Source: Planctomycetaceae bacterium (GTDB lineage: Bacteria; Planctomycetota; Planctomycetia; Pirellulales; Pirellulaceae). Taken from it: a DNA stretch of 45,373 bases. Below are positions 10,001 through 38,575 of this stretch, in pieces (the stretch's first letter is position 1; every line of letters begins with the position of its first letter). The notes below the pieces were generated by a model that was not told where the DNA came from, made no database searches, and saw only the letters and a list, made by a program, of their open reading frames with translations. The translations under genes were made by a program, and so were the position numbers. The DNA lies in the NCBI GenBank assembly GCA_024225195.1, contig JAAEMV010000050.1:1-45373 (forward strand), in the 5' to 3' direction.

Positions 10001-10873
10001 TTGGCTCCTCCCAGAAAACAAACTACGATCTCCCAAAGCGTCTCAGTTTCCGGTTACGGATTCTGGAGCGGAAGGGATATCGAATTGAACTTCCAACCTG
10101 CGGAAGCCAATAGCGGCATCGTCTTTGTGCGAACCGATCTCCCTGGTCAACCCAGGATTCCAGCCATTATTCAGAACCGAATCAACGGTCCTCGGCGCAC
10201 AACGTTAGTTGCCGAGGGTTGCCCCGTTGAAATGGTCGAACATGTTCTTGCAGCCTTGGCTGGATTGAACATCGACAACTGTGAAATCCACGCTACTCGG
10301 GCTGAAATGCCAGGTGACGACGGCTCAAGCAAAGCGTTTTCGGATGCTGTGATCCAAGCGGGACGGGTGGAACTGGACGCTGATCGAGAAACCCTCCGCG
10401 TCACTTCTTCCATTCGCGTTGGTGACGAAAATGCCTGGATTCAAGCAGAGCCGGTTGAGCAGGATCGTTTCGAACTTGCTTACCAACTGAATTACGCGTG
10501 CCCTTCCATTGGAACACAAACCTACCAAACCGAGGTCACCCCCGAGGTTTTCGCCTCGGACATTGCTCCGGCGAGAACTTTTGTGCTTCTTGAGGAAGCA
10601 CAAGAACTACAGAAAAAAGGGCTAGGCCAACGAGTCAGCTATCAAGACATCCTCGTTTTTGGGCCACAAGGGCCGATCGACAATCAGCTTCGATTCGAAA
10701 ACGAATGTGCTCGACACAAACTACTAGACATGATTGGTGACTTCTCACTATCGGGTACTGACCTGATTGGAAAGTTCACTGCATCAAAAAGCGGCCACCG
10801 TTTGAACTCACAATTGGTATTCGCGCTACTGCAGCAAATAGGCCATACTAACACCATTCGCAAATCAGCTTGA
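10001..10873 (+). CDS. lpxC: UDP-3-O-acyl-N-acetylglucosamine deacetylase
   Basis: LpxC catalyses the committed, zinc-dependent deacetylation step of lipid A synthesis in the cytoplasm. The conserved zinc and catalytic motifs are present at the same numbering as in E. coli: EHVLAAL with His81, HKLLDMIGD with His239 and Asp243, and SGHRLN with His266. The protein has 290 residues and is not fused to FabZ. No ATG or GTG is available; a TTG at 10001 is the first start in the frame, and the frame is closed by a stop at 9962. Its stop overlaps the next start by 4 nt, so lpxA is translationally coupled. Confidence 0.95.
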   Translation: MAPPRKQTTISQSVSVSGYGFWSGRDIELNFQPAEANSGIVFVRTDLPGQPRIPAIIQNRINGPRRTTLVAEGCPVEMVEHVLAALAGLNIDNCEIHATRAEMPGDDGSSKAFSDAVIQAGRVELDADRETLRVTSSIRVGDENAWIQAEPVEQDRFELAYQLNYACPSIGTQTYQTEVTPEVFASDIAPARTFVLLEEAQELQKKGLGQRVSYQDILVFGPQGPIDNQLRFENECARHKLLDMIGDFSLSGTDLIGKFTASKSGHRLNSQLVFALLQQIGHTNTIRKSA

Positions 10874-11745
10874 AACGAAATTCTGTGGATATATATTCCC
10901 CCAACGAAGGCACGCAGCAAGTGGACACACAAGAACCAGCACCCAAGGTGTCAAACTTGGCCTGCGTCGACCCGGCGGCTTCCCTCGCACCGGGCGTCGA
11001 AATAGGGCCATTTTGCGTCATCGGACCGAAAGCAAAGATTGGCAGAAATACTAAATTAATCAATAACGTCACGATTCTGGGCGACGTCACGTTAGGCGAA
11101 GACAACCTCGTCTCACCCGGTGCTGTTCTCGGTGGAGAGCCTCAAGATCTTAGTTACCGAGGTACTGACACCAAAGTTGTCATTGGCGACCGGAATGTGA
11201 TTCGGGAATGTGTCACCATCAACCGAGCAAGTGAAAAAGAAGATTATTACACTCGCGTTGGCAGCGATTGCTATTTCATGGGCAATGTTCACATCGCCCA
11301 CGATTGCATGATCGGCGACCGGGTAATTATCGGACACGGATCGATGCTCGGCGGGCACGTCCACGTTGACCATCACGCGACACTCTCTGGCTCTGTCGCC
11401 GTTACTCACTACGGCGCAATTGGCTGTTACACATTTATTGGTGCGGCAAGTCGTGTGCTTCAAGACATCGCCCCCTACATGCTCGCCGACGGAAGCCCAG
11501 CTCGCCCTCGGTGTATCAACATCGTCGCTCTGAGAAGAAATGATTTCGAACAACCTGTGGTCGACGCAATCAACGAAGCGTATCGATTGATGTATCGAGC
11601 CCGTGTTGGGCTGAGCAATTGCGAAGAAATTCTAAAATCAAAAGGCCATTTAATTCCCGAGATCAGCCATTTCTTGGAATCGGTTGCCCAGTCGCAAGCC
11701 GGCCGTCATGGCCGCGGACGCGAGCTAAGGAGAAAAGCAGCGTGA
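10870..11745 (+). CDS. lpxA: Acyl-ACP--UDP-N-acetylglucosamine O-acyltransferase
   Basis: This is a left-handed beta-helix acyltransferase with many hexapeptide repeats. The LpxA signature is present: VSPGAVLGGEPQDLSYRG, VIRECVTINRAS, VHIAHDCMIGD and the C-terminal helical part starting NIVALRRNDF. It acylates the sugar nucleotide at position 3 in the first step of lipid A synthesis. About 28 extra residues precede the first repeat, so a later start is possible. The TTG at 10870 overlaps the lpxC stop (TTGA). The end overlaps the next gene in the same manner (GTGA). Whether it prefers GlcNAc or the 3-amino analogue cannot be decided here; the neighbouring oxidoreductase makes that question relevant. 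Confidence 0.95.
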   Translation: MKRNSVDIYSPNEGTQQVDTQEPAPKVSNLACVDPAASLAPGVEIGPFCVIGPKAKIGRNTKLINNVTILGDVTLGEDNLVSPGAVLGGEPQDLSYRGTDTKVVIGDRNVIRECVTINRASEKEDYYTRVGSDCYFMGNVHIAHDCMIGDRVIIGHGSMLGGHVHVDHHATLSGSVAVTHYGAIGCYTFIGAASRVLQDIAPYMLADGSPARPRCINIVALRRNDFEQPVVDAINEAYRLMYRARVGLSNCEEILKSKGHLIPEISHFLESVAQSQAGRHGRGRELRRKAA

Positions 11746-15445: not shown

Positions 15446-16318
15446 ATGCAAACTCAGCGTTGCATGCAAAATCAGGTAGAACCATCCACCCAAATCTCAG
15501 CCGAACCACTGAAACCATTTATGAAAATCAGCCCCGATGAACTTGAAATCTACTCAGCCGCCAGTCGAGAAGCAGCCAGACGAGGCGGTCAAGTTCTTTT
15601 AAAGTGGATGGGAAAAACGACCACCCGGGAAAAAGGATTCCGTGACCTAGTGACACAAGCGGATGTCGAATCCCAGCAGGTCATTCAAGAATTTTTAAAT
15701 TCTGAATTTCCCGAACATCGATTCATTGGCGAGGAGTCAACTGGGGAATCCGAGGAAATCTCCGATTCGGATTTTTGCTGGATAGTCGATCCTCTCGATG
15801 GAACAACCAACTACGTTCACGGCCTTCGATCTTTTGCCGTTTCAATTGCTTTATATCGTCGCAAGACTCCACTCGTCGGCACGGTTTTGGATCCGGTGCT
15901 CGACGAATGTTACTGGGCATCTCAAGGATTGGGAGCCAAATTAAATGGCGAGCCGATTCAAGCGAGCGACTGCAAGGAAATCGGTAAATCACTGTTTGTA
16001 TTCAGTTTCCCTCGCGGCATGACCAGAACCAACCCAGAGGTCGTAAGATTCCTAAACATGCTGGAGAACGTAGGCAGCATTCGCCGACTCGGTTCTGCTG
16101 CGCTCAACTTGTGTTACGTTGCCTGCGGCCGTGCCGATGGTTACTGGGCAACCAGTCTTTCTAAATGGGATGTTGCTGCCGGTTGGCTAATCGCCCGCGA
16201 AGCAGGCGCCTCTGTCGCTGATTTCCGAGGGCATGAAATCGATATAGAACAACCATTTTTCTGCGCTGCAGCGACTGCAGATTTACTTAAACAAGCAAAC
16301 CCACTTCTCAATGTTTAA
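15446..16318 (+). CDS. Inositol monophosphatase family protein
   Basis: The metal-binding motifs of the lithium-sensitive Mg-dependent phosphatase family are in order: IGEES, WIVDPLDGTTNYVHG and WDVAAGWLIAREAGA. Family members (SuhB, HisN type and others) dephosphorylate inositol, histidinol or nucleotide phosphates, and the exact substrate is not clear here. The length from 15446 is 290 residues. A second in-frame ATG at 15521 (MKISPDELEIYSAASREA) would give 265 residues and fits the usual family length better. Neither start has a clear Shine-Dalgarno sequence. It converges on the thioredoxin-like gene. Confidence 0.9.
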   Translation: MQTQRCMQNQVEPSTQISAEPLKPFMKISPDELEIYSAASREAARRGGQVLLKWMGKTTTREKGFRDLVTQADVESQQVIQEFLNSEFPEHRFIGEESTGESEEISDSDFCWIVDPLDGTTNYVHGLRSFAVSIALYRRKTPLVGTVLDPVLDECYWASQGLGAKLNGEPIQASDCKEIGKSLFVFSFPRGMTRTNPEVVRFLNMLENVGSIRRLGSAALNLCYVACGRADGYWATSLSKWDVAAGWLIAREAGASVADFRGHEIDIEQPFFCAAATADLLKQANPLLNV

Positions 16319-16396: not shown

Positions 16397-17044
16397 TTAA
16401 TCTTTCTTACGCTTCGCAAAGGCTTGGCGAATCTCCTCAAGACGCTGCTCGTCTGAAGTTGATGATGATTCAATCATCGTCACGAAGTGAGCAACTTCAG
16501 CGGGCTGAACAGGACAGCCAATGTTGCCCTCCGGACCAACGGATGTAATCAGTTCTTTTCCGTCACTATCAAGAATCACCATCCACGGCATACCGCCGGA
16601 CCGATCCTTTTTCATCTCATCGAACATGACTTGTCCACCCTCCATCTTGTCAGTCGCGATTGCAACGACCAAATAATTATCTTCGAACAAAGGACTGTTC
16701 TCCACGAGGAACTCCTCGAGTTTGTGACACCACCCTCACCAATCCGCAGTAAAATGAACAAGAACCGCCTTGTTTTCGGCCTTGGCTGACTTCAACGCTG
16801 CACCCAAAACCTCGGTTGCCACCAAGGGGGTTTCTGCACTATCCGTTTCTGTCAACTCTGCAGCGCTCTTCTCCAATTCGGGCGGCTTGCTTAACGGCTG
16901 CCGCCCCTGATTTTCGAGTGCCGTCTTCACTATTTCATTTTGGGCCGTTTGTGCTTCTTTTTCTTTTTTCGACAACTGCTCTCCATCGCACCCGAGAGCA
17001 GCAGCAATCGTGAAAAGCAGGGCCGCACAGATTAACCTTCTCAT
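16397..17044 (-). CDS. Thioredoxin-fold lipoprotein with in-frame UGA (candidate selenoprotein)
   Basis: Read through a UGA at 16738-16736, the frame gives one 215-residue protein. The ATG at 17044 follows GAGGAG. It begins with a lipoprotein signal peptide with lipobox AALGC (Cys19), then a charged linker to about residue 75. A thioredoxin-like domain follows: VLVHFTADW, UGA as residue 103, then GWCHKLEEFL. The active site thus reads U-G-W-C, with UGA exactly where the first cysteine of CxxC belongs and Cys106 as the second. The cis-proline motif GGMPW (Pro153) lies about 47 residues on. Sequence on both sides is thioredoxin-like in the same frame, and a SECIS-like hairpin follows. Alternatives are a nonsense mutation (pseudogene), a sequencing error, or two separate ORFs (17044-16736 and 16705-16397). 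The protein is probably periplasmic and lipid-anchored, in thiol redox or folding. Confidence 0.7.
16703..16720 (-). promoter_or_regulatory. SECIS-like stem-loop downstream of the UGA
   Basis: On the minus strand CGAGG (16718-16714) pairs perfectly with CCTCG (16709-16705) around a 4-nt loop AGTT. A further C-G pair lies beyond a U-U mismatch (16720/16703). The loop begins 23 nt after the UGA and has G at its second position. Published rules for bacterial SECIS elements ask for an apical loop roughly 16-37 nt downstream with a G in the first two loop positions, so the geometry fits. The stem is short and lies in coding sequence, so chance pairing is possible. Confidence 0.45.
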
Positions 17045-17154
17045 CGCAAACTCCTCTATCTGTAAATTCAATCCCGAAGCCAAAAAGTCCTAGCAGTTGC
17101 CATTCCATCTTAAGCTAAATATTTGTTCGCTCAAAACTTTAACTGAATGAAAAT

Positions 17155-18303
17155 TTAGCGTGAGAGATCCCGCATAAAAATCAAAGACACAGGAAATAAA
17201 ATCATTAAGGGTAACCAGGCGGAGAGCGCCGGAGACCCGATAAGACCATTACCACCAAGAGAGTGACAGACCATTTCCACCAACAGAAATAAAACGATAA
17301 CTCCCAATCCACCCAAAACGCCAGACACGACGTTTTTTTCAAGCTTTCGAATCACCAAAGGCAACCCAAGCAAAAGTAAAGTGAAGTCCATCACCGGCTT
17401 CAAGAATCTTGAGTGCAGCTCAACTGCCAATTCATTTACTTTCCGTTTTTTTGTCGCTTTCAGCTCGCCTATCAGTTCGGGAGTTGACTTGTATTTAGCA
17501 TCAGCACTGATAAGTAATTTTTTAGTATTTAGATCAGTGGCAACAAAGCACTGATTATTGTGCAACCATTCGAAATCACGTGGTGTATAAACCACGGTTT
17601 CACCGCCTTCGCTTTCAACTGACTTCAGTTGATGCATTTCTTTTGGGAAATTTACTTTGTGGAAACGAAATCCCGAAGGCTTGCCTGACTCCGCAACTTC
17701 AAAAAAAGCACTCTCAGCTTTTATCTTTTGGAACCCTGCTTCTAAGCCAATTGGAATTCTTACTTCGGGCGCCGTGATCCCGTCTTTTGAAAGTAAAAGA
17801 AGATCCCCGGAAAAGGCAACTCCCGTTTTGTAATCAATCCTCTCATCGAATGCTTTCGATACTGCGGAAGATGTCTTCCATTCAGTCCACTCCTGCCAAT
17901 CCATGGTCAGGCGATCACCCACTTTGGGGATCAGAACTTCACGGCTCAAAACCGTCATCGCAATAATGATGGAGGCCGCAACGAAAACGACTTTAAAAAT
18001 ACGCAGCTTACTGATTCCAGCTGCCTCGATTGCCGTGACTTCTCGATTGCGTTGTAACAAACTAATCGAGAAAATCGCCGCCACTAAAATGAATACGCCT
18101 GCGAGTTCATTGAAACGGGCAGCACACTGCGGATAGTATCGATCGAAGATCGCCGAAGACAATCCATCGGCCTCAGCAATCGCAGCGATCTCATCTGCAT
18201 TCCCTGTGCCGTCGATAACGAGAAACAGGCCAAAGAAACTGGCAAAGCAAATCAAAAATGTCTTCAAAAAGACAGAGAGTAAATAGCGATCGACAATTGT
18301 CAT
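17155..18303 (-). CDS. LptF/LptG family permease (LPS export)
   Basis: This 382-residue YjgP/YjgQ-type protein begins MTIVDRYLLSVFLKTF, the family's typical cytoplasmic start and first helix. It then has the helix and loop LQRNREVTAIEAAGIS that contacts LptB, a central periplasmic beta-rich domain, and three C-terminal helices. LptF and LptG form the inner-membrane part of the lipopolysaccharide export ABC transporter. This fits the lpxC/lpxA genes elsewhere in the window. Only one of the pair is present here, and F versus G cannot be assigned. The thioredoxin-like lipoprotein gene lies 110 bp downstream on the same strand. Confidence 0.88.
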   Translation of the reverse strand: MTIVDRYLLSVFLKTFLICFASFFGLFLVIDGTGNADEIAAIAEADGLSSAIFDRYYPQCAARFNELAGVFILVAAIFSISLLQRNREVTAIEAAGISKLRIFKVVFVAASIIIAMTVLSREVLIPKVGDRLTMDWQEWTEWKTSSAVSKAFDERIDYKTGVAFSGDLLLLSKDGITAPEVRIPIGLEAGFQKIKAESAFFEVAESGKPSGFRFHKVNFPKEMHQLKSVESEGGETVVYTPRDFEWLHNNQCFVATDLNTKKLLISADAKYKSTPELIGELKATKKRKVNELAVELHSRFLKPVMDFTLLLLGLPLVIRKLEKNVVSGVLGGLGVIVLFLLVEMVCHSLGGNGLIGSPALSAWLPLMILFPVSLIFMRDLSR

Positions 18304-36775: not shown

Positions 36776-38575
36776 CTAACGGTCTTGCTGATCGGACAAA
36801 CGATTCAGTAAGTCCTGCTCGGACAGCACCATATCAAAGTATCCGATCATCATCTCCTCATGGGTTTGATCGCCCCATCTAACCGTTTTCTTTGGATTGG
36901 GATTGGAAAAATTCTTGGCTGAGTTATCAAAAATCGCTTCGCAAAGAATTTCCGTACCACGAGGCAGCAACTTGGGTTGCTCAAACTCGTATCCGTTTTG
37001 CCAGTTGAAATCATAGTTAGGCACATCCAGCAAGACTTCGCTCCGTCCGTCAGGATAGTTTGCCGTGTATTTAAACGACTTGCCCCTCAAGTGCATGTGC
37101 GGAAACATTGCAAGCAACAATGCGTCCTGACGCATCGTTCGTCTCGCCGTAACATCGTGATTTGCTTCGCCTGCCGGGATTAAAAACTTTGTATTTTGAA
37201 CACTTTTTGTGCCAACGACTTTACGGACTTGTTTTTTATCGGCGAACTTAAATCCTACCGAACTAAGATCCGTTTGGGGCGTTCCGATTGGCGTATAGTG
37301 AACCTGAAATACCAACGTCGCGCCGGCAGGAATAACTTTAGCGAGGCCGTCGGTCAACATGAGAGGAGTTGAACCAGGTGCGGCAGCGGTAAGCCAATCC
37401 GAATCGAGTTCACCGTGAACAGGCTTCCTTCCCCGCCTTGAAACAGCCACAATGATATGATGGACAACGGCACGATTGCCGATTCTGATCTCTGCTGCCT
37501 GAACCCACTTGTCTTCCTTGAAATTTGTTTTGACTTGGAAATATTGATAGGGCAAAATCCCGCCAGCGGGAATGGGATAAGGTTTTTTTGTCACCTGAAA
37601 TACAACATCAGGCTCTCCTATCCGCCAGCCTTTGGTAAATTTCGGGGGAGTTGGTAAATCATTCGTATCTCCTAAGGGGGCACCGGCCTTCACCCAATCG
37701 GCAATCAGTTGCTTTTGCTCGGTTGATAAAGTTGGATCATTCTTAAATTTTCCGTGCTTGGGGTTCGCGTGCCAGGGTGGCATTCGCTGATCCTTAACCA
37801 CTTCATCAATCATGCCCGCCCAACCGACGACCTCGTCATAATCAGTTAAGCTAAACGGTGCAGCTTCCCCATCGCGGTGACATTTAACGCACCGCTCGTT
37901 TAAGATTCGAGAAATCTGATTTGCGTAGGTAACCGTTGACTGGTTCTCTGTATCCTGAGTTAAGACTCGCCCGATAATACATCCATCGGTGTCAGTTTTC
38001 TGAATCTTGGGAGCTTTCCGGTTTTTGATTGCCTCCACTGCATCCGCCAGGTAGTTATTTGACGCCTTAAACTTTTGTTTCCCATAAGTGAATTGATCAT
38101 CAATTGCGCCTTGGTACACCAACTCTTGATTTGAATCAAACAGGAAAACTTCCGGAGTTCTACTCGCCCCGAAAGCATCGGCAACGCGGTTTGCAGGATC
38201 TTTGAGTAAAGGGCAGTTGACCTTCAAATCGCTTGCGAATTTAGTAATCTCAGTAATGGAATCTTGGCGATTCGAATTTAGACCAATAATCTGTAACTGA
38301 TCACGGTTGTTCTTAACCAATTCCCCCAACTTGGGAACATAAAATTTCACTAACGGGCACTCGACGCCGAAAAATACAACAATGGTAGATTTGTCGGAGT
38401 CGAGATTGGACGAATCGAACGAGTTGCCTTGATAGTCTTTCAAAACAAAACTTGGCATTCGGTCCCCGACCTGCAACTGCTCTCGTTCAGAGTCTTCAGC
38501 GCTCAACCTGCCCGATGTTAAGCAAGCGGCAGTAAGAGAGAGAAGGACAATTAGGGCTCTAAGTTGGTACTTCAT
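36776..38575 (-). CDS. Redoxin / c-type haem / PHM-like copper protein
   Basis: This 599-residue exported protein has a signal peptide (about residues 1-26) and three regions. First is an AhpC/TSA-like redoxin domain (about 32-185) that keeps a single cysteine in GVECPLVKF (Cys73) instead of a CxxC. Second is a c-type haem site CVKCH (229-233) with the downstream Met candidate RMPPWHA. Third is a C-terminal region with VVHHIIV and MFPHMHLRG, resembling the copper-binding PHM fold of type II ascorbate-dependent monooxygenases. This architecture is typical of planctomycetes and relatives. The activity is unknown. It lies upstream of the regulator operon on the same strand but ends about 95 bp before the operator, so it is probably separate. 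Confidence 0.8.
   Translation of the reverse strand: MKYQLRALIVLLSLTAACLTSGRLSAEDSEREQLQVGDRMPSFVLKDYQGNSFDSSNLDSDKSTIVVFFGVECPLVKFYVPKLGELVKNNRDQLQIIGLNSNRQDSITEITKFASDLKVNCPLLKDPANRVADAFGASRTPEVFLFDSNQELVYQGAIDDQFTYGKQKFKASNNYLADAVEAIKNRKAPKIQKTDTDGCIIGRVLTQDTENQSTVTYANQISRILNERCVKCHRDGEAAPFSLTDYDEVVGWAGMIDEVVKDQRMPPWHANPKHGKFKNDPTLSTEQKQLIADWVKAGAPLGDTNDLPTPPKFTKGWRIGEPDVVFQVTKKPYPIPAGGILPYQYFQVKTNFKEDKWVQAAEIRIGNRAVVHHIIVAVSRRGRKPVHGELDSDWLTAAAPGSTPLMLTDGLAKVIPAGATLVFQVHYTPIGTPQTDLSSVGFKFADKKQVRKVVGTKSVQNTKFLIPAGEANHDVTARRTMRQDALLLAMFPHMHLRGKSFKYTANYPDGRSEVLLDVPNYDFNWQNGYEFEQPKLLPRGTEILCEAIFDNSAKNFSNPNPKKTVRWGDQTHEEMMIGYFDMVLSEQDLLNRLSDQQDR

Follow-up and report, generated by a model that had tools for sequence, protein, structure and literature searches.

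The window examined here, a 45,373-nt contig (C50) of a Planctomycetaceae genome, carries a frame in which a single UGA stands where a thioredoxin-like protein would have the first cysteine of its active site. Is this gene broken, or is the UGA read as selenocysteine (Sec)? The genome spans 6.43 Mb in 1063 contigs and is 94% complete; among named genomes, two 'Mariniblastus sp.' assemblies are the closest to it. The frame runs from ATG to TAA with a sole in-frame TGA at codon 103 and is continuous on both sides of it, as the original prediction had it (table 1). GGG TGG TGT follow the TGA, hence U-G-W-C, and 112 codons remain until the TAA. The expectation that automated annotation would split such a gene was borne out by a mechanical list of open reading frames, which does cut it. 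The exchange of UGA and Cys codons among homologues, a hairpin specific to TGA copies, synonymous conservation, coding constraint and the Sec genes of the organism together make a selenoprotein very probable: we put at about 95% the probability that this is an intact selenoprotein gene with a bacterial SECIS, and no pseudogene.

Table 1. Features of the selenoprotein gene and its product, in window coordinates.
Feature	Position	Strand	Basis
Very probable selenoprotein gene, 215 residues + TAA, UGA103 read as selenocysteine	16397..17044	-	frame and 104 homologous loci
GAGGAG, probable ribosome-binding site, 5' of ATG	17051..17056	-	sequence; position by eye
Predicted signal peptide, ends at lipobox-like ALGC	16988..17044	-	Cys19 conservation in relatives
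Cys19, probable lipidated residue	16990-16988	-	conserved in relatives
Thioredoxin domain, residues 75-196	16457..16822	-	Pfam Thioredoxin_7; AlphaFold; PDB folds
In-frame UGA, predicted Sec103, first residue of U-G-W-C	16736..16738	-	TGA/Cys codons in 104 loci
Cys106, predicted resolving Cys of UxxC site	16727..16729	-	TGT or TGC in homologues with readable site
SECIS hairpin CGAGG-AGUU-CCUCG	16705..16718; loop 16713-16710	-	comparative and synonymous evidence
Pro153, cis-Pro position, GGMPW	16586..16588	-	invariant in protein alignment of relatives
Cys177 (GNIGCP), third Cys, loop ahead of last domain helix	16514..16516	-	co-occurs with Sec; phylogenetically confounded

Comparison of homologous loci established the UGA/Cys exchange. 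We counted 104 loci that had a readable site and scored 90 bits or more: TGA stood at the first active-site codon in 43 (from 42 genomes) and TGC or TGT in 61, and no other codon occurred there. That a UGA would rarely fall by chance on the one codon where Sec is expected had been argued from the window alone, and its recurrence in 43 of 104 loci bears this out. Five loci below 90 bits (L041, L101, L108, L170 and L171) were left out of the count, and so was one whose site could not be read (L040). L038, L042-L060, L103, L104 and L158 also lay outside it, as did weaker matches without a fetched locus, including five weak TGA-bearing ones (in G057, G024, G025, G031 and G043). A contig scan gave nine loci, with L052 and L053 on the same contigs as L023 and L029. 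A search of 60 genomes detected strong matches with one internal TGA in 12 of the 28 genomes of the genus, the organism's own included, and in one genome of a different genus (G031). A set of 241 family genomes contributed five further one-TGA matches (G200, G201, G202, G208 and G213), and 392 genomes of the phylum a further 25 TGA loci in 24 genomes, all 25 of which were read. Since those 392 genomes were drawn evenly from the phylum, the phylum counts are counts in a sample. In three family matches (G128, G149 and G196), the flagged TAA or TAG falls at the C-terminal end.

Coding constraint persists past the UGA. Over the 69 codons downstream, comparison of the window gene with its counterparts in G018, G022, G007, G017, G019 and G003 gave dN of 0.05-0.08 and dS of 0.8-1.4. 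Distant pairs (G027, G021, G024 and G031) gave dN of 0.22-0.48, with dS from 1.05 to over saturation, while G016, at dS 0.02, is too close for judging constraint. These results bear on whether a nonsense base at the Cys codon, from decay or from a sequencing or assembly error, simply splits the gene. TGA is one base away from TGC and TGT, and the wider family does contain an off-site TGA, in G074, a genome where selA was not found; the presence of TGA at the same codon in 43 loci of 42 genomes nevertheless largely refutes a pseudogene or error in the window, and the low dN past the UGA, the specificity of the hairpin to TGA copies and the full Sec machinery of the genome also count against it, leaving it very improbable. 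The TGA of G074 (L101) lies off the active site at a position where G113 and G128 have Trp, and it looks like decay or a sequence error. Within the genus, G025 has a Cys copy despite having tRNA-Sec and selA. This copy (L033) reads CTWC, has two extra cysteines around the cis-Pro (ECGLPC) and retains a left-over five-pair stem at the SECIS position; it is perhaps the product of a Sec-to-Cys change.

The hairpin noticed in the original prediction is present: a 5-bp stem closes a 4-nt loop, AGUU, with G as its second base, and the loop lies 22 nt past the UGA. Comparison revealed that, of the 43 TGA copies, 40 have the five pairs intact and 40 have the AGUU loop, at the same spacing, whereas only one of the 61 Cys copies has the five pairs (G025) and none has the AGUU loop. 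The exceptions among TGA copies are G201 (four pairs), G467 (a different stem with loop AGUUU) and G372 (a different hairpin farther on). A wider search, for any stem of at least 5 bp with G in the first two loop bases, matched all 43 TGA copies vs 13 of 61 Cys copies. Selection on the RNA shows most clearly in synonymous conservation. The stem codons form the most synonymously conserved five-codon window, a result reached in 0 of 100000 draws with 12 genomes and in 19 of 100000 with the closest eight.

Double changes that keep pairing were seen in G015, G031 and G568 (GC to AU) and in G640 (GC to CG). None of 500 shuffles reached these four doubly changed cells, but five turn up in a slid control, so we treat the covariation as modest and as supporting evidence only; paired cells made up 96.7% in the hairpin vs 48% in the slid control. 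Single-sequence folding is uninformative as proof of a SECIS, and the case rests on comparison: the 46-nt stretch with and after the UGA folds at -10.8 kcal/mol, an ordinary value against shuffled sequences (z -0.11), and its minimum-energy fold has four of the five stem pairs. An excerpt of PMC13188914 gives the limits of bacterial SECIS elements as a loop of 3-9 nt, a stem of 4-16 bp, G in the first two loop bases, a spacing of 16-37 nt and an energy of at most -7.5 kcal/mol. In loop, stem, G position and spacing, the window hairpin stays within these limits. Its energy fits only with the surrounding 46 nt folded, the consensus helix alone giving -6.99 kcal/mol.

The hairpin also bears on a selenium-free alternative, in which the lineage has reassigned the UGA or reads through it with another residue such as Trp. 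The frame would indeed be open whichever residue the UGA encodes. The other 61 loci have Cys at the site, however, not Trp, the hairpin accompanies the UGA, and tRNA-Sec is encoded in the genome together with selA, selB and selD; we give such a reassignment a very small chance.

Every Sec gene that the original prediction had proposed to look for was found in the window genome. Its tRNA-Sec scored 67.4 bits, above the Rfam cut-off, and was called tRNA-SeC(tca) by ARAGORN; selB (365.9 bits), selA (592.8) and selD (257.4) were all above their cut-offs. The selD frame (L019, contig C223) is 740 residues long, and its active-site residue reads as Cys. Its extra N-terminal half looks like an NADH-dehydrogenase-type flavoprotein. 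Across the 42 genomes with a TGA copy, selA was present in 36 (15 of 18 in the family, 21 of 24 in the phylum), in G021 only as a piece at a contig end that falls below the curated cut-off. It was not found in G003, G018, G213, G590, G434 or G524. The first two have tRNA-Sec and selB; the last three, where selA alone was sought, are 82, 77 and 91% complete. Sought in 12 TGA genomes, selB was found in 10 and not in G213 (77% complete) or G202 (98% complete, selA present). G021 and G027 have no strong tRNA-Sec, yet carry selA and selB. In the phylum sample, selA occurred in 21 of 24 Sec genomes vs 16 of 25 that have a Cys copy as their best match, a difference that is not significant (p 0.095).

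We also considered whether the Sec trait explains which members of the genus carry the gene, and rejected this. A tRNA-Sec above 60 bits occurs in 24 of the 28 genus genomes (own included) vs a TGA copy in 12, which gives the trait a wider spread than the gene. Weaker tRNA-Sec matches were not counted, since the default threshold gave matches in 14 of 14 control genomes.

The predicted read-through product is 215 residues long. Its signal peptide includes Cys19; after a linker comes the thioredoxin domain, which contains U103-G-W-C106 and G-M-P153-W, and we take the cis state of Pro153 from the thioredoxin fold. Pfam Thioredoxin_7 (PF13899) spans the UGA, matching residues 81-159 with 38.7 bits vs a cut-off of 27, which agrees with the thioredoxin-like character first read from GWC and GGMPW. 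Thioredoxin_2 and Thioredoxin were also above cut-off. An AlphaFold model built with 17 aligned proteins has ten-residue blocks above 90 pLDDT over residues 71-210, and the best solved match by both fold and profile is 3fk8, a disulfide isomerase. No NCBIfam model exceeded its cut-off, either with the window protein or with the sets of relatives tested (six and three). The proposed lipobox held up in part. All 13 aligned relatives whose N-terminus is visible keep Cys19, as do G200, G201 and G208, so a lipoprotein anchored at this residue is likely; the A-L-G-C motif itself is loose in the window gene. By our reading, two-domain relatives in the phylum often have a plain signal peptide instead. 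Overall, the checks of the thioredoxin-like selenoprotein reading that could be run came out in its favour, and none of the refuting outcomes named in the original prediction turned up.

The AlphaFold model places a third cysteine, Cys177, in the loop that connects strand 164-167 to helix 181-194. In thioredoxins, the equivalent loop borders the active site. Cys177 is present in 40 of 43 Sec loci vs 6 of 61 Cys loci, a count that includes two split Sec copies; the raw association is strong (Fisher p 9e-19), with rows that are not independent. The tree of 103 rows is weakly resolved; the Sec label needs seven changes on it, and independent pairs are too few. Because of this shared descent, we make no claim that Cys177 depends on Sec.

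Upstream on the same strand is an LptF/LptG permease frame (17155-18303), and an inositol-monophosphatase frame (15446-16318) faces the selenoprotein gene. Both neighbours are kept in 5 of 18 homologous loci tested (G016, G018, G007, G017 and G019) and one in 3 (G022 and G003, where the gene is at a contig end, and G024); within the stretch fetched, neither was seen in the other 10. Elsewhere in the window, adjacent lpxC-like (10001-10873) and lpxA-like (10870-11745) frames on the forward strand both exceed NCBIfam cut-offs. We take them as lipid A genes, in keeping with the LptF/LptG frame beside the selenoprotein gene. A 599-residue frame on the reverse strand (36776-38575) has a peroxiredoxin-like AhpC-TSA domain (38114-38470) and, beyond it, a haem-like CVKCH motif seen by eye. 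Searches of the window gave no Rfam match at gathering score, no tRNA and no plasmid match at E 1e-5.

How might the protein work? We infer that tRNA-Sec and SelB would read UGA103 as selenocysteine, SelB being recruited by the hairpin downstream in the mRNA and charged tRNA being supplied via SelA and SelD. The product would be exported, probably lipidated at Cys19, with its thioredoxin domain in the cell envelope. There, Sec103 would act as the attacking selenol on a client disulfide or oxidised thiol; Cys106 would resolve the intermediate as a selenenylsulfide, and some donor would then re-reduce the pair. Cys177, probably close to the active site, may serve as an additional or alternative partner. 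By analogy with the DsbD-gamma/DsbH/PDI-like group, we moderately favour a role as reductant of disulfides or oxidised thiols in envelope proteins.

The same selenoprotein might instead reduce peroxide or another oxidant, with Cys177 as the resolving cysteine. Sec is frequently used against peroxides, and in seven relatives the frame also encodes a ResA-like AhpC-TSA/Redoxin domain (three of them examined with Pfam). Against such a role, the Pfam matches of the window protein at E 0.001 are all of thioredoxin type (Thioredoxin_7, Thioredoxin_2, Thioredoxin and Thioredox_DsbH) with no peroxiredoxin among them, and UxxC is a disulfide-exchange motif. We consider peroxide reduction the less likely role.

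The seven relatives (G402, G434, G582, G444, G460, G390 and G640; loci L119, L122, L123, L125, L127, L128 and L129) each have a ResA-like UGPC domain followed by a UGWC-type domain in one frame, the first domain of G460 having UPPC rather than UGPC. From their sequences they are probable double selenoproteins. In the three examined with Pfam, AhpC-TSA/Redoxin and Thioredoxin_7 were both matched, and no NCBIfam model was over cut-off. Folds past the first UGA, in six of the seven, were mixed, so this first UGA is less well supported. Ten further loci (L109, L110, L111, L112, L113, L114, L115, L130, L131 and L132) encode tandem thioredoxins, the first with CxWC and the second with UGWC. In the window genome, an in-frame TGA was found in 7 of 20 AhpC-TSA matches (L179, L181, L182, L187, L188, L190 and L191, on C180, C695, C448, C156, C433, C621 and C591); all seven were read, and five have UPPC or UGPC. 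These redoxin-family frames are probably further selenoproteins, so the window selenoprotein is probably one of several in the organism.

Tentatively, and at rather less than even odds, these genes may form an undescribed Planctomycetota selenoprotein family with three architectures: a lone UGWC lipoprotein, a tandem of a Cys-thioredoxin and a Sec-thioredoxin, and a double form of a ResA-like UGPC domain and a UGWC-type domain. The window gene would then represent its single-domain, lipid-anchored branch. Such a family would have a nearly fixed SECIS (CGAGG-AGUU-CCUCG) and a third cysteine by the active site as an alternative selenenylsulfide partner of Sec, and its double form would pass electrons from Sec domain to Sec domain.

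Thioredoxin-fold selenoproteins with UxxC are well known, and the window protein is a new member of modest novelty. There is a fair chance that its subfamily is unlisted so far. Table 1 of PMC13188914 has 119 families and subfamilies, among them a PF13098 thiol:disulfide interchange protein with UxxC (reference protein WP_011366075.1) and a Trx7/PDZ protein with CxxU. Excerpts of PMC2398784 and PMC4807772 report, respectively, Trx-like 1, 2 and 3 with UxxC and selenoproteins in two planctomycete genomes; table S9 of PMC4807772 may list relatives. Our literature search returned no paper on Mariniblastus or Pirellulales with selenocysteine and none on a UGWC selenoprotein or a ResA fusion. It did return papers for Planctomycetota with selenocysteine. 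The closest likeness is to the PF13098 protein (PMC13188914) and to Trx-like 2 (cd02953, UxxC; PMC2398784), which, as excerpted, share a Sec-first UxxC in a thioredoxin fold. The window protein passes PF13098 too (29.9 bits vs 27), but its best Pfam match is Thioredoxin_7, and it is a short, likely lipoprotein with a third Cys; compared by excerpted description, it may belong to the same subfamily. The Trx7/PDZ selenoprotein (NF041199) also has a Thioredoxin_7-type domain with Sec, which is second in its motif according to PMC13188914 and first in the window protein, and NF041199 gave no match at E 0.001. To TsoB (NF045694), a rhodanese/DsbD fusion-like selenoprotein, there is a weak match at its DsbD-like end (31.6 bits vs a cut-off of 805); the window protein, by contrast, lacks a rhodanese part and contains a single Sec. 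The thioredoxin fold is shared with DsbH (NF043050; 35.6 bits vs 190), the DsbD gamma domain (DsbD, 28.7 vs 330) and the Xylella disulfide isomerase 3fk8. These have Cys where the window protein has its predicted Sec.

Automated gene finding tends to split such genes or call them pseudogenes, and here a phylum-wide family is affected. The Sec and Cys copies, the nearly fixed SECIS and the Sec-linked third Cys can be compared across the phylum and amount to a natural experiment on the reasons for retaining Sec and on the features that the local SelB recognises. In the window genome, several redox proteins seem to contain selenocysteine. The two-Sec ResA-thioredoxin fusion of its relatives, if real, would let electrons pass between two selenocysteines within a compact system.
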